This document shows, piece after piece, positions 42,475-53,089 of a stretch of DNA of 64,000 nt. The stretch comes from Thiotrichaceae bacterium. GTDB taxonomy: Bacteria; Pseudomonadota; Gammaproteobacteria; Beggiatoales; Beggiatoaceae. Under the pieces are notes generated by a model, which was not told the DNA's origin, made no database searches, and worked only from the letters and a program-made list of their open reading frames with translations. The translations under genes and the position numbers were made by a program. Position 1 is the stretch's first letter. Each line of letters starts with the position of its first letter. The stretch is taken from contig JAQTYU010000002.1 in the NCBI GenBank assembly GCA_028688145.1, positions 496,001 to 560,000 on the forward strand, read 5' to 3'.

Positions 42475-43797
<1,323 letters not shown>

Positions 43798-43837
43798 TTA
43801 GGCGAAATTTCTGAATGTTTTCAGAAGTTTTAATATA

Positions 43838-45262
43838 TTAAGGGAAACTATTTTTGTAAATATGTCTAGAAAAGTGAAACAAAAAACGCTTTTCGTTCAT
43901 TTTCCAATCATCAATTCCATAACTGTTAGTTTCTTTAAACTCATACGTGGTATTAAAACTGGCAGTATGGTTTGTTATTGATATAGGACCGAAGTTAGTT
44001 TCCATTTTAGGCAGCGTTAGCCAATATATTTGATATAAGCCTACGTTATAATTGTAGCTACCTTTGTTTTGTTGGAAGGTATTTAACAGCTCATTAAAAC
44101 TGCTATGTTCTTTTAATTCTTTTAGGCTTCTGCTTTTTAATTTATCTAATAAATTCTTTTGCACTTCTGAATACGTTGCAGCTAAAGGTATTTCTCGAGC
44201 AGACAATAAACGTTCCATTTCATCCTTTTCAATTGGATCGAAAAGAGAAAATAAAGCCCATTCATAACGTTGAACGTCATCAGGAAGCTTAAACATACAG
44301 CGCATTGCTGTGATGAATAAAAAAGCAACATCTTGTTCGGTAAAATTATCGGTTAACACATTATGTGCCATCCAGTTTCTCAGATTTTTCATAATCCAAC
44401 CGAAAGAGGATAAGCATGTGTTCTGTCTATCTGACAGAGGAAGATAATTAGAATTCGCGTTAGTTTCCCATTCATGGGCTAAAGTGCGAAGAAATAATTT
44501 ATAGGTACGTGTCTTAGAAACAGGTTCTGTGGCTGGGAAAAACTTTTCAAGTGTTTCTAAATAATCTAATAGACTAACTTTTAGTTCATTATCTGTCGGT
44601 TTCTTATCTAGGAAGTTTTTGAATTGAATAGAGGCTATTGAACTTGTATTAATACACTTACGAATAAATTGGCAGCCGCTAATAATGCCACGTCTTAGTT
44701 GTAAATAAGGCGTTTTTTCCTTACTGGATAGCCAATTACGCAAGCCTTTAAAACCTTCCGCACTTTCCTCATCTTCCGTGGATATTTTTTCAAAAGAAAC
44801 AGGGGATTCTGGCATTAAAATAGCGTTGCATTGTTCGCGAAAGTTATCCAGCGTATTCTTTTCACCTGTTAATATGCAAATATTATCTTTTGGAAAACCT
44901 TGCAATATTAAATAATTATATATCCATAAACCACCGCGTTTATGGTCATAATTTGTATCTGATTCATCGAGATTTTTTTCCAAATCAACGCCTTCACTCA
45001 GATTCAAATCTAGTAAGATAACATCGATATTTTGTAGTGAGTTATCATTTAAAAAATCTTTAAAATCAAAATAATGTCTACACAGTGTTATTTCATGAAA
45101 ATCATGAGCATCTGAAGCTAAGTTATTTAGCTTACTCGGTTCTTTTTTCAAATTATGGGTGCGCCCTAGGCTTAACTGACTAATGAGATTTTTAAAAATA
45201 CTGCGCACTGCTTTTTCCGGTTTTAATGATCCCCCAAAGTCTTCTACCCATAATACATTCAT
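43838..45262 (-). CDS. Receiver-like protein with putative HEPN ribonuclease domain
   Basis: 474 residues. Residues 1-150 are a receiver-like domain with a large insert: V-E-D at the first strand end, probable phosphoacceptor Asp85 in V-I-L-L-D-L-N-L-S-E-G, then I-L-T-G-E-K with Thr132 and Lys135. The middle (180-290) is helical. At 295-300 is R-N-W-M-A-H, which fits the R-N-x3-H motif of HEPN ribonucleases and is set between two hydrophobic helices (S-S-F-G-W-I-M-K-N-L before, V-A-F-L-F-I-T-A-M-R-C-M after). The C-terminal 120 residues are unassigned. It overlaps the Sel1-kinase gene by four bases. I infer a response regulator whose output is RNA cleavage. The HEPN call rests on one motif and helix pattern, not a profile search. 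It is A/T richer than its neighbours. Confidence 0.72.
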   Translation of the reverse strand: MNVLWVEDFGGSLKPEKAVRSIFKNLISQLSLGRTHNLKKEPSKLNNLASDAHDFHEITLCRHYFDFKDFLNDNSLQNIDVILLDLNLSEGVDLEKNLDESDTNYDHKRGGLWIYNYLILQGFPKDNICILTGEKNTLDNFREQCNAILMPESPVSFEKISTEDEESAEGFKGLRNWLSSKEKTPYLQLRRGIISGCQFIRKCINTSSIASIQFKNFLDKKPTDNELKVSLLDYLETLEKFFPATEPVSKTRTYKLFLRTLAHEWETNANSNYLPLSDRQNTCLSSFGWIMKNLRNWMAHNVLTDNFTEQDVAFLFITAMRCMFKLPDDVQRYEWALFSLFDPIEKDEMERLLSAREIPLAATYSEVQKNLLDKLKSRSLKELKEHSSFNELLNTFQQNKGSYNYNVGLYQIYWLTLPKMETNFGPISITNHTASFNTTYEFKETNSYGIDDWKMNEKRFLFHFSRHIYKNSFP

Positions 45263-47241
45263 GCGAAATTATCCTTGTGTAATGTCACTGTGACAGTGAA
45301 GTAATTGTCTTGTTCGTCAAACCTTAGTTCTGACTGTTTTAATAAGTCGAGTAAGCGTTTGATAAAAAGTAATCCGTTTTTGCTGCCTGCCTCAGCATAA
45401 CGATTTTCTGCTACATAGTTATTTTTACAGGAGAAATGGTAAAAATCTCCCTCTGTTTTCCATTGAACATCAATCGGTTTATCTTGTGCGTAACGAATGC
45501 TGTTGTAAATCAGTTCTGAAAAAATTGCAAAGAGTAAAGTATAACGCTTGCCGTTTTCTCGAAAGCGGATGGCATCTTGTTCAAGATGAAACTCGAAAAT
45601 ATTAAAGTTGTTTTCGACCCACGTCAAACAATGCTGAGGAGTTTTCACTGTAGACAGCACAATTTCCCTCATAAATTTTTGTCGCAAGCTGTCACAAGCT
45701 TCATCTGACAGTGTGGGGAAAAATTTGCTTAGGTAATCGTTGGATAATTCAAACAGCAAACGGTTTAAAGTTTGTTTGACTGAAAAAGCTAACACCGCAT
45801 GAATACTGGCTGAACCCGTATTATCCTGTTCCCAACTTTTTTGAAACTCTCGGGGATCGGTGGCATATTGCTTAAAGGTTTGTATTAAAATATGAATAGT
45901 TGAAAACGTAGCGGATAAGGACTGCATTTGATAAACCGCTTCAAATTTTCGCGGGTCAGTCTCATAATCTTCTGTGCCTAATAATTCAATGACATGTTTT
46001 ACACTGTCACTGACAGTCCCTAAACTATTGTTTAATGTATGTGTTAAAAACGAAAGCATTTCCTTATCTGCGGCTTCTTTGGCTTTTACACGTTCCAATT
46101 CAATTAACTCATCCGCCGCTACTTTACGAATCACGCGGGTAACCATTTCTTGATTTTCTTCATTAACGCTCTGAAGCGTTAATAAAAAGCTAGAATCAAC
46201 CTCTTTATCTTCCGTAATGTCGTGCAAATATTCTATTGCTTTTGCAATATCATTGTTGTTTTTGTAAATACTGGATAGTGCATATTGTGCTAATATAACA
46301 ATAGCTTGCTCTTCCAAAACATCTTTTTTTGCAACTATCTGTTCATAACAATGAATGGCTTCATCATCATTTTGGGTTACGCCTTTTCCATCACTGTAGC
46401 AACCCCCTAAAGCATACTGAGCCCGAGCATAACCCTGTTCATCTGCTTTTTTAAACCAATTGAAAGCTTTATCATCATTTTGAGTTACGCCTTTTCCATC
46501 ACGGTAGCAAACCCCTAAATTATACTGAGCTTGATCATCACCCTGTTGTGCGGCTTCTTTAAACCACTTGAAAGCTTCTTCATAATTTTGTGCTATGCCT
46601 TCTCCATTAAGGTAGCAAATCCCTAAATTAAGCTGAGCTAGAGCATCATCCTGTTGTGCGGCTTCTTTAAGCCACTTGAAAGCTTCTTCATAATTTTGTG
46701 CTATGCCTTCTCCATCACGGTAGCAAACCCCTAAAGTAAGCTGAGCTTGAGCATCACCCTGTTGTGCAGCTTCTTTAAACCACTTGAAAGCTTTTTCAAA
46801 CCACTTGAAAGCTTCTTCATAATTTTGGGCTATGCCTTCTCCATTACGGTAGCAAAATCCTAAAGCAAGCTGAGCTTGAGCATCACCCTGTTGTGCGGCT
46901 TCTTTAAACCACTTGAAAGCTTCTTCATAATTTTGGGTTATGCCTTCTCCATTACGGTAGCAAATCCCTAAATTAAACTGAGCTTGAGCATCACCCTGCT
47001 CTGCAGCTTTTTTAAACCATTTAAACGCCTCTTTATGATTTTGGGTTACACCTTTGCCTTCAGTGTAGCAAACTCCTAAATTAAACTGAGCTTGAGGATC
47101 TTTGCGTTTAGCACGCTTTAGAAATTGCTTAAACATCCTGCTTGCATCTTGCTCGGCTTTTGAAACCTCATCAGCAGTAGGATACAAACCTTCTGGAATC
47201 AAACAATTGCTTGGTTTTATATAGGAGTCTTTTTTGTTCAT
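45259..47241 (-). CDS. Sel1-repeat histidine kinase
   Basis: 660 residues. Seven clear 36-residue Sel1 repeats (about 50-305), each like A-Q-F-N-L-G-V-C-Y-x-x-G-x-G, then an eighth diverged one, a coiled coil, a HisKA-like helix with His401 in F-L-T-H-T-L-N-N-S-L-G, a long helical insert and an HATPase-type domain with F-S-E-L-I-Y-N-S-I-R-Y-A (N-box) and S-K-N-G-L-L-F-I-K-R-L-L (G2-like). The G1 motif is hard to see. No transmembrane segment, so cytosolic. ATG 47241 replaces a TTG at 47250. ATGA overlap with the receiver-HEPN gene downstream makes a cognate pair. Sel1 repeats usually bind protein, so the input is probably a protein partner. Confidence 0.82.
   Translation of the reverse strand: MNKKDSYIKPSNCLIPEGLYPTADEVSKAEQDASRMFKQFLKRAKRKDPQAQFNLGVCYTEGKGVTQNHKEAFKWFKKAAEQGDAQAQFNLGICYRNGEGITQNYEEAFKWFKEAAQQGDAQAQLALGFCYRNGEGIAQNYEEAFKWFEKAFKWFKEAAQQGDAQAQLTLGVCYRDGEGIAQNYEEAFKWLKEAAQQDDALAQLNLGICYLNGEGIAQNYEEAFKWFKEAAQQGDDQAQYNLGVCYRDGKGVTQNDDKAFNWFKKADEQGYARAQYALGGCYSDGKGVTQNDDEAIHCYEQIVAKKDVLEEQAIVILAQYALSSIYKNNNDIAKAIEYLHDITEDKEVDSSFLLTLQSVNEENQEMVTRVIRKVAADELIELERVKAKEAADKEMLSFLTHTLNNSLGTVSDSVKHVIELLGTEDYETDPRKFEAVYQMQSLSATFSTIHILIQTFKQYATDPREFQKSWEQDNTGSASIHAVLAFSVKQTLNRLLFELSNDYLSKFFPTLSDEACDSLRQKFMREIVLSTVKTPQHCLTWVENNFNIFEFHLEQDAIRFRENGKRYTLLFAIFSELIYNSIRYAQDKPIDVQWKTEGDFYHFSCKNNYVAENRYAEAGSKNGLLFIKRLLDLLKQSELRFDEQDNYFTVTVTLHKDNFA
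46771..46812. repeat. 21-bp tandem duplication inside the third Sel1 repeat
   Basis: Two adjacent 21-base units encode A-F-K-W-F-E-K and A-F-K-W-F-K-E, giving one repeat an extra heptad. The whole repeat block (about 46330-47100) is made of near-identical 108-bp units, a sign of recent expansion. Confidence 0.8.
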
Positions 47242-47301
47242 AAGTAGCAACCGCAGAATCTAACACAAGAAAACCCTAAGCCTTATTCCGTAGAACAAAG
47301 A

Positions 47302-48141
47302 TTAAGCATTAATACTCTCTTCCAAAAAATCAGTGCGTTTCACGCAACTGTCTAATTCTTTCAGCAGGGTCAACAAGGCTTCAATTTTTCCCAAGGGAAT
47401 TGAATTTGCGCCATCACTCAAGGCTTGTTCAGGATTGGGATGGGTTTCCATGAAAATACCTGAAATCCCCGCAGCAACGGCAGCGCGGGCTAACACGGGC
47501 ACAAATTCACGTTGTCCGCCTGAAGATGTGCCTTGCCCCCCCGGTAATTGTACTGAATGCGTGGCATCATAAACCACGGGGCAACCCGTTTCACGCATCA
47601 CCGCCAAAGAACGCATGTCCGAAACCAGATTATTATACCCAAACATTGCGCCGCGTTCGCAGACCATAATTTGCTCATTGCCCACAGCACGCGCTTTAGC
47701 CACCACGTTTTGCATATCCCACGGGGCTAAAAACTGTCCTTTTTTGATATTGACAGGCAAACCTTGCCGCGCCACGTCTTGAATAAAATTGGTTTGGCGG
47801 CATAAAAATGCAGGGGTTTGCAACACGTCAACCACGCTGGCAACTTCGTTTAAAGGCGTGTCTTCATGCACATCGGTGAGCACGGGCACGCCGATTTGTT
47901 CACGCACTTTTGCAAGAATCTTTAAACCTTGTTCCACGCCAAAGCCGCGAAAACTTTGGTGCGAAGAGCGGTTGGCTTTATCAAAAGAAGATTTATAAAT
48001 AAAGGGAATCTGCAAACGGTCGGTGATTTCTTTCAAATAGCCTGCGGTGTCGAGGGCGAGCTGCTCGGATTCAATCACGCAAGTGCCCGCAATCAAAAAT
48101 AAGGGGCGATTTAAGCCCGCTTCAAAATGGCATAATTTCAC
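47302..48141 (-). CDS. kdsA: 3-deoxy-8-phosphooctulonate (KDO-8-P) synthase
   Basis: Condenses arabinose 5-phosphate and phosphoenolpyruvate for lipopolysaccharide KDO. Landmarks: [73 protein letters not shown] 48141 is chosen (AGGA about 10 bases upstream); a TTG at 48147 would be too close to that site. About 279 residues, normal for the family. The I-E-S form of the first motif and the C-R-Q-T signature place it in the C-x-H-D-E or metal-variant class only by inference. Confidence 0.95.
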
Positions 48142-48207
48142 GCACAATATCCTGTAGTGATATTTTTTTAAAACAAGCCTTTGAATTCCCTGAAGGGGAA
48201 TTTCTTA

Positions 48208-51532: not shown

Positions 51533-53089
51533 CTAAGCCCTTGGGATAGGAAAAACAACACGGAAACCGTAGCTGAAGCCCCTATTTGAGCTGTTGGGAC
51601 GATAGGCAGAACGACAACTATTTATATCGTTGCCCCAAGAACCACCGCGCAACAGGCGAAAACTCCCTCCACTGGCACATTTGGCATCCTTTCCATCCGT
51701 GTAATATCCTTTCTCACTACACGTCCATTCCCATACATTTCCCGCCATATCATACAAGCCAAAATCATTCGGCAACTTTTGACCTACCGCATGAGTCTGG
51801 CTACCTGAATTCGCACCATACCAAGCATATTCCCCCAAACGACTTTCATCATTTCCAAAATGCCACTTTGTCGTTGAACCAGCTCGTGCTGCATATTCCC
51901 ATTCTGCTTCTGTCGGCAAACGATATGCTTTCCCTGTCTTTTTACCTAACCATGCCGTATACGCTTCTGCATCTTTCCAATGCACACAACTCACGGGATG
52001 ATTATCGGCGGGCGTAAATCCTTTGGGATTCATTAAGCTATTACACTCATATTCACCAACATTTGCACCTGTGTAACCCGTTTCCTGCATGAACGCTTTA
52101 AATTGTCTCACTGTCACTTCATACTTACTCATGTAAAATGAATACATTTTCCACGCATGGACGGGCTTTTCATCACTCTCCCCATCAGTCGACCCCATCT
52201 CAAACGTTCCCGCTGGAATCAACACCATTTCAGGCTCATACGCTTGACGAGACGGTTTTAGCGCAGGTTCTGGAGCGGGAGGTGCAGGCTCTGCCACAAG
52301 AGCTTGCTGCACCACACCCCCACAGCCTGCAAAACAAAAACGCACCGGCGACATTTCCACCAATGGGACTTGTTGATTTCCAACAGTATCCGCCATCGTC
52401 AAACCCACTTCATTAAAAAATTCAGAAATATTTCGGCTGGTCAAACTGCGGTTTTTCAAACCTTCCACCAAATACTGCGTATAAAAACTATTCCGTTGAT
52501 TCTTACTGCCCAAGGCTTTTTTCAAAGGCTGGGTTGCATAATTCATGATAAAACGTTCATATTTACCCAAACTCACCAAACCTTCCTCAAAAGTCCCCTT
52601 ATGTTCTTCCAGAAAACCCGAAGGCACATTGCGGCACGCATCCAAAATCATCACATTAATGCCCTGTGCATTCTTGCTCCGCAAACTCCGAACCACAAAA
52701 CTCGCATCAAGCGACTCTTCTTCTAAAGCGTCCCGCGTTCTCACCATCTCCTGAAAACTGCCCACTAAAAAATTCGTGTCGTGTGCATTCGGATCTTTGC
52801 CACTAAAACCATGCCCAGAAAAATAAAATAAAGCCACATCACCATTTTGCAAACCACTGGCGAAATTCTGCACCGCATTACTCATGCTGCGTTTATTTTT
52901 ATCAGTTAATACCGTGACTTTAAAGCCTAAATTTTCCAAAGCCGCCGCCACATCCGTCGCGTCATTCACAGGATTACTTAACGCCCACTTCTCAGGATAA
53001 TCCCCATTTCCAATCACCAACGCCTGCTTTTGCAAAGCCTGTGCAGGCAAAGCAAAAATCATTAAAAAATACAATAAATATAGATACAT
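51533..53089 (-). CDS. Secreted caspase-like protease fused to a SUMF1/FGE domain
   Basis: 518 residues. Signal peptide (Y-L-Y-L-L-Y-F-L-M-I-F-A-L-P-A-Q-A), then a caspase-like (peptidase C14) domain at about 20-255: A-L-V-I-G-N-G-D-Y, catalytic His93 in F-Y-F-S-G-H-G and Cys152 in I-L-D-A-C-R-N. A proline-rich linker (A-E-P-A-P-P-A-P-E-P-A) leads to a formylglycine-generating-enzyme-like domain at about 285-515: M-V-L-I-P-A-G-T-F-E-M-G, P-V-S-C-V-H-W, Y-R-L-P-T-E-A-E-W-E-Y-A-A-R-A-G, G-N-V-W-E-W and G-G-S-W-x-N. The SUMF1 fold is a C-type-lectin-like one and may bind rather than catalyse. Export to the periplasm is unusual for bacterial caspases, most of which are cytosolic. It lies downstream of ompA-like gene, 132 bases away. 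Confidence 0.9.
   Translation of the reverse strand: MYLYLLYFLMIFALPAQALQKQALVIGNGDYPEKWALSNPVNDATDVAAALENLGFKVTVLTDKNKRSMSNAVQNFASGLQNGDVALFYFSGHGFSGKDPNAHDTNFLVGSFQEMVRTRDALEEESLDASFVVRSLRSKNAQGINVMILDACRNVPSGFLEEHKGTFEEGLVSLGKYERFIMNYATQPLKKALGSKNQRNSFYTQYLVEGLKNRSLTSRNISEFFNEVGLTMADTVGNQQVPLVEMSPVRFCFAGCGGVVQQALVAEPAPPAPEPALKPSRQAYEPEMVLIPAGTFEMGSTDGESDEKPVHAWKMYSFYMSKYEVTVRQFKAFMQETGYTGANVGEYECNSLMNPKGFTPADNHPVSCVHWKDAEAYTAWLGKKTGKAYRLPTEAEWEYAARAGSTTKWHFGNDESRLGEYAWYGANSGSQTHAVGQKLPNDFGLYDMAGNVWEWTCSEKGYYTDGKDAKCASGGSFRLLRGGSWGNDINSCRSAYRPNSSNRGFSYGFRVVFPIPRA

Follow-up and report, generated by a model that had tools for sequence, protein, structure and literature searches.

A kinase and regulator gene pair between kdsA and eno

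The window analyzed here is a 64,000-nucleotide stretch of a Thiotrichaceae bacterium genome (GCA_028688145.1, contig JAQTYU010000002.1, positions 496,001 to 560,000). Within it, we studied a pair of adjacent genes predicted to encode a sensor histidine kinase and a response regulator that joins a receiver domain to a putative HEPN ribonuclease domain (hereafter, receiver-HEPN). The initial annotation had described two open reading frames overlapping by ATGA, and both were recovered in this arrangement on the minus strand. The overlap occupies positions 45259-45262 (TCAT on the forward strand) and joins the TGA of the kinase gene to the ATG of the regulator gene; an alternative TTG start for the kinase is possible at 47250. 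The features at the level of the locus are as follows:

45259-47241, minus strand: Sel1-repeat sensor histidine kinase, 660 residues from ATG (open reading frame; Pfam Sel1; invariant H, N, and G boxes)
43838-45262, minus strand: predicted receiver-HEPN response regulator, 474 residues (open reading frame; family of 65 distinct homologues)
43765-47301, no strand assigned: accessory insert (approximately 34-42% guanine plus cytosine, versus 43-51% in the flanks)

The insert is bounded by kdsA upstream (47302-48147) and eno downstream (42475-43764), with all genes on the same strand. In 14 of the relatives examined, kdsA and eno lie only 16-287 nucleotides apart and the pair is absent between them; hence, the simplest explanation is that the kinase and regulator genes came in as a two-gene cargo at a site where these relatives have no insert. 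The receiver-HEPN gene is present in a single copy in the genome that contains the window. Its product had no significant Pfam or NCBIfam match, and neither gene had a PADLOC match of weight.

Inspection by eye of the same junction in four other loci (L075, L079, L084, and L086) revealed apparent nuclease-like, GNAT-like, and methyltransferase-like cargos, as well as an antitoxin paired with a PIN-like gene. Given these different small cargos in relatives, the kdsA-eno junction may be a small insertion hotspot.

Receiver and helical output domains of the regulator

We compared the regulator with its 65 distinct homologues, retained after duplicate removal, in an alignment of 66 sequences including the window protein. 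The full-length protein, with 30 family members as input, and the helical core were modeled separately with AlphaFold2. The features of the regulator are listed below, with conservation given as the fraction of aligned sequences:

44768-45262, minus strand: receiver domain, residues 1-165, (beta-alpha)5 topology (AlphaFold2 model; Foldseek)
45008-45010, minus strand: codon of the predicted phospho-acceptor Asp85 (65/66; end of beta-3 in the model)
44786-44788, minus strand: codon of receiver Lys159 (66/66; just after beta-5 in the model)
44225-44761, minus strand: helical HEPN-like core, residues 168-346 (separate AlphaFold2 model; profile comparisons)
44363-44380, minus strand: R295-N296-W-M-A-H300, predicted ribonuclease active site (R 64/66, N 63/66, H 66/66)
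43841-44224, minus strand: C-terminal extension, residues 347-474, helices plus a beta hairpin (model; no Pfam match)

The full-length model (predicted local distance difference test score, pLDDT, 82.9; predicted template modeling score 0.88) shows an alternation of strands and helices over residues 1-165 that amounts to a complete receiver fold. D85 and T132 are at the ends of strands 3 and 4, respectively, and K159 directly follows strand 5. Beyond D85 and K159, conservation extends to the acidic pair (E7, 63/66; D8, 62/66) and to a threonine or serine at position 132 (66/66). When this model was searched against the PDB using Foldseek, the top matches were the response regulators FixJ and StyR, both weak (E 0.06-0.16). 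The receiver-like start proposed in the initial annotation was therefore upheld for Asp85 and Thr132, but not for its lysine: Lys135 is conserved in 5/66 sequences and was ruled out in favor of Lys159.

HEPN domains carry the motif R-x4-6-H, most often in the form RN-x3-H. The R-N-x3-H motif of the regulator, initially described as lying between two hydrophobic helices, proved to be conserved; in the model, it is located at the end of a helix spanning residues 282-300, before a second helix at 309-323, within a helical bundle. The core-only model (pLDDT 90.3) consists of long helices only, with an all-helical bundle that bears the motif. Conservation of this motif, and of the receiver and kinase residues, is far beyond chance.

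Profile comparisons aligned the motif with those of two accepted HEPN families, with weak scores. Of the families sampled, the nearest were HEPN_Swt1 (PF18731), HEPN_RiboL-PSP (PF18735), and Abi_2 (PF07751), which are likewise all-helical with an R-N-x3-H motif; the window protein differs in falling below every Pfam cut-off and in having a receiver attached at its N-terminus. A profile combining the two subfamilies of the family aligned end-to-end with HEPN_Swt1 (score 23.9; maximum of 40 shuffles, 17.3) and brought the two motifs into register. Subfamily 2 likewise aligned with HEPN_RiboL-PSP with the motif in register (score 24.9; shuffle maximum, 17.1). For reference, none of eight unrelated control profiles scored above 20.0, and scores between accepted HEPN pairs were 22-37. 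The profile-profile alignment with Abi_2 exceeded most shuffles, but it did not bring the motif into register and was not counted.

Several results weigh against the HEPN assignment. The profile scores are among the weaker ones seen for accepted HEPN relationships, and that of one unrelated profile used as a control, the kinase C-terminus (20.0), came near the second HEPN score (20.7). Subfamily 1 alone did not rise above shuffles when compared with HEPN_Swt1, given that 29 of 150 reached its score. None of the HEPN models in Pfam reached cut-off in any homologue, and a scan of consensus sequences for added sensitivity also gave no HEPN match; the sole Pfam match of the window core was an insignificant one to the motif end of Abi_2, itself a HEPN family (E 0.12). 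The whole-protein model had no significant Foldseek match to a solved HEPN protein, and the 179-residue core had no significant PDB match of any kind in a search run without a positive control. Extending the Foldseek searches of the whole protein and core to viral models as well as the PDB yielded weak receiver matches or noise only, and neither profile gave a relevant match to PDB sequences in hmmsearch. The structural part of the initial proposal thus had a mixed outcome: a helical bundle and in-register profile alignments were obtained, but no significant Foldseek match.

These negatives leave room for a different reading, in which the output is another helical domain, such as one binding nucleic acids or proteins, and the RN-x3-H motif is structural. 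In addition to the missing Foldseek and Pfam confirmation, the motif resides within a tryptophan-rich helix (K-x2-RNW-x2-H) that has other strongly conserved residues. Such a reading is unlikely in light of the behavior of the divergent subfamily 2, which comprises L107 and its relatives, all of them preceded by kinases of their own. Its members retain mainly the acidic pair, D85, K159, an LRRG motif, and RN-x3-H, even though the helix preceding the motif differs; R, N, and H are therefore kept across two subfamilies despite a changed neighboring helix. The motif of the distant member L107 is MRNRTAHG, and RNRTAHG-type motifs are a common HEPN form. The placement of the motif on HEPN motifs in the profile alignments, and the loss of the arginine together with the kinase in apparently decayed members (see below), also argue against a purely structural role. 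No different known output domain appeared in any search. We consider it likely, with good confidence, that the output domain is a HEPN domain.

Family distribution, kinase coupling, and sensors

The pair recurs in sulfur-oxidizing and methane-eating bacteria. Family members occur in 20 of 116 relatives (a count that takes in the genome of the window), 30 of 201 Methylococcales genomes, and 4 of 369 genomes class-wide, with further members in two assemblies labeled as cyanobacteria and on plasmid pUP202 of Methylomonas sp. This spread is patchy, and several genomes contain divergent copies. When relatives were searched for this receiver joined to a different effector, every strong match belonged to the receiver-HEPN family, and a Schlafen domain was seen only in the distant L041.

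Co-occurrence of the two genes in other genomes, suggested as a check in the initial annotation, was pronounced. In 59 of the 63 evaluable loci (94%), a kinase of the same type either immediately precedes the regulator gene on its strand or is fused to it, and the commonest spacing between kinase and regulator is -4 nucleotides. One natural fusion (L037) is a chain of 797 residues that unites sensor and kinase with a shortened receiver region and, after it, the HEPN core. Two of the four uncoupled loci (L039 and L040) encode regulators with both R295K and D8S substitutions and have no recognized kinase. This joint loss is expected of a decayed system, in which catalysis and phosphorylation are lost together.

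The features of the kinase, for which the earlier description of seven Sel1 repeats, a HisKA-like His401, and an N-box was borne out, are as follows:

46342-47097, minus strand: Sel1 sensor repeats, residues ~49-300, seven full repeats (Pfam Sel1; direct reading)
46039-46041, minus strand: codon of the phospho-acceptor His401, in T-H-T-L-N-N-S-L (invariant, 62/62)
45279-45624 (approximate limits), minus strand: HATPase region with N-box N580 and G-box G623 (each invariant, 66/66; weak HATPase_c matches)

All three boxes are present across the partner kinases, and HATPase_c matches are weak in these and the window kinase alike. Pfam Sel1 matched the window kinase in eight stretches (E = 1.8e-80); by eye, these resolve into seven full repeats and a degenerate eighth unit resembling a TPR. 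The repeats are encoded by similar tandem DNA units of 108 nucleotides, and one of them contains a duplication of seven residues (FKWFEKA; positions 46768-46819). The likeness of the units and this short internal duplication suggest that the sensor was probably lengthened recently, by slippage.

Sensors vary across the family, whereas the predicted relay stays the same. Sel1 repeats are present in most partner kinases and TPRs in some, and in two lineages the sensor position is occupied by a methylase. In Crenothrix (L057, 5643-7979), an N6 DNA-methylase domain is joined to the kinase in one open frame upstream of the receiver-HEPN gene. In a Pseudanabaena assembly (L067, 5636-7981), a single open frame encodes an N6-methylase, a type I specificity domain, and the kinase, with the receiver-HEPN gene downstream. 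Active N6-methylases usually contain the motif NPPF (NPPY). In the Pseudanabaena protein this is degenerate (SLPF), so this methylase, seen in one metagenome assembly, may bind DNA without methylating it.

The near-constant pairing of a kinase whose H, N, and G boxes are intact with a regulator that retains all canonical receiver residues points to a phosphorelay between the two, which we regard as very probable. An alternative is that the receiver is a ligand-responsive switch that operates without phosphorylation, as proposed for the receivers lacking a histidine kinase in Cam2 and VMAP-type conflict systems (PMC11229360; PMC8195603). One weak Foldseek match, to a viral "cyclic-phosphate processing receiver," agrees with this idea. 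It is nonetheless very unlikely here, in view of the retained catalytic residues and the adjoining kinase.

Additional genes were observed near some family members. In L021 (9195-11429), L058 (9629-11754), L062 (9640-11772), and similar Methylococcales loci, the receiver-HEPN gene is often followed by a gene for a toxin-like (VapC-like) PIN-domain protein and by a conserved gene of ~560 codons with a weak NUDIX match. A distant relative with another ribonuclease-type output (L041, 6419-9927) has a TPR kinase beside a single protein in which a related N-terminal receiver is followed by another receiver, of canonical type, and by a Schlafen AlbA_2 domain.

Proposed relay, possible defense role, and known systems

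In the model that we propose, a cytoplasmic kinase would sense a protein or other ligand through its Sel1/TPR solenoid, autophosphorylate at His401, and pass the phosphate to Asp85 of the partner receiver. The receiver switch, involving T132 and K159, would free or dimerize the HEPN-like domain, and the R295/H300 pair would then cleave RNA to arrest the cell or block an invader. Sequence supports the model in that the genes form an operon, the kinase and the receiver each have their full set of motifs, and RN-x3-H is invariant; phosphotransfer, the HEPN fold, ribonuclease activity, an activating and not a repressing effect of phosphorylation, and a role against phage are our inferences. That the relay switches a ribonuclease appears fairly likely. 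Our preferred reading overall, to which we assign a probability of roughly 0.6, is a two-component system in defense with an enzymatic output, namely a HEPN ribonuclease, rather than a transcriptional one.

The defense component of this reading stems from the patchy spread, the low-GC insert and empty sites, the plasmid copy, the defense-rich flanks of related loci, and the methylase-sensor kinases, which together favor such a role indirectly and moderately. The flanks of family loci matched 121 PADLOC families in 129 genes, compared with 23 families in 94 genes for control regions, which were arbitrary, drawn largely from the same genomes, and included a CRISPR gene. Among the flank matches were Septu PtuA, AriA of PARIS, and components of MADS. 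The defense-island neighbors sought on the basis of the initial annotation are therefore present at related loci, but none occur in the window.

This absence is one of three points that tell against a defense role: the window pair has only housekeeping neighbors, no family member was found in IMG/VR contigs, and the PADLOC figures count redundant families rather than genes. The first two also speak for a rival reading, in which the phosphorelay and HEPN ribonuclease are real but the pair is a housekeeping regulator of stress or growth that, for example, halts translation when the cell starves or its envelope is under stress. The position between kdsA and eno fits this account, as do Sel1 repeats, which are general protein-interaction modules. 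However, a housekeeping regulator sits poorly with the patchy presence, empty sites, plasmid copy, and several divergent paralogues per genome, or with swapped sensors that include DNA-methylase domains and flanks in which PADLOC families outnumber those of controls. We consider this explanation rather unlikely. The pair is probably an emergency or anti-virus switch, for which an anti-phage role itself is plausible. A bolder and doubtful extension would be that the pair represents a so far undescribed family of immune systems built on a phosphorelay. Its sensors (Sel1 or TPR solenoids or, in two lineages, a type I restriction methylase, once with its specificity domain) would be exchangeable, and all would feed the same kinase-receiver-HEPN relay; where the sensor is a methylase, recognition of DNA without the self mark would itself be the signal for RNA cleavage.

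The closest described system is Detocs, a three-gene anti-phage system comprising the kinase DtcA, the buffer receiver DtcB, and the receiver-effector DtcC with an ATP-cleaving PNP domain (PMC11249213; PMC11728103). In both systems, the kinase gene has as its neighbor a gene for a response regulator with an enzymatic effector, a predicted one in the window pair. The window pair differs in having no stand-alone DtcB receiver, being flanked directly by kdsA and eno, and its regulator has no PNP match and instead of the PNP ATP nucleosidase carries the helical RN-x3-H domain. Without the buffer gene and PNP domain, the pair was not filed as Detocs. It may work in a similar manner; the two are set apart here by the gene content and the effector described for Detocs. 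TPR sensor repeats are also carried by DtcA.

Other relationships are more partial. PorX combines a receiver with a PglZ-type phosphodiesterase (PMC12839542), hence also joining a receiver to a hydrolase rather than a DNA-binding domain, but its output fold and biology differ. The Cam2 and VMAP/iSTAND2 receivers share the use of a receiver in immunity; they lack a histidine kinase, whereas here the kinase is a near-constant neighbor. In BREX-related loci, a fusion of a Schlafen ribonuclease with a minimal histidine-kinase domain (PMC12839542) similarly ties a ribonuclease to kinase parts in a defense setting, but with a different ribonuclease fold and domain order and no separate receiver-HEPN partner. 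The portion of the HEPN survey covered here (PMC3710099) describes AbiU2 as a HEPN Abi protein in an operon with a Sel1-repeat protein; that portion mentions no kinase or receiver for AbiU2 and contains no receiver-HEPN fusion, and the window pair has no AbiU2 match.

Text searches of the open literature found no description of the receiver-HEPN layout, in line with the initial statement that no such system was known, although the primary Detocs work may describe a HEPN variant of DtcC. The layout is real, widely conserved, and undescribed as far as searched, and is best read as a two-component system whose output is probably a HEPN ribonuclease. If the model is true, a ribonuclease joins the few effectors known to be under phosphorelay control in bacteria, two-component defense is broader than Detocs, and the naturally swapped sensors allow one to ask what such kinases detect. 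The family of 65 distinct members collected here is not covered by Pfam, NCBIfam, or PADLOC.

Elsewhere in the window, positions 51533-53089 encode a 518-residue protein with, as judged by eye only, a caspase-like N-terminus and a domain resembling formylglycine-generating enzyme.

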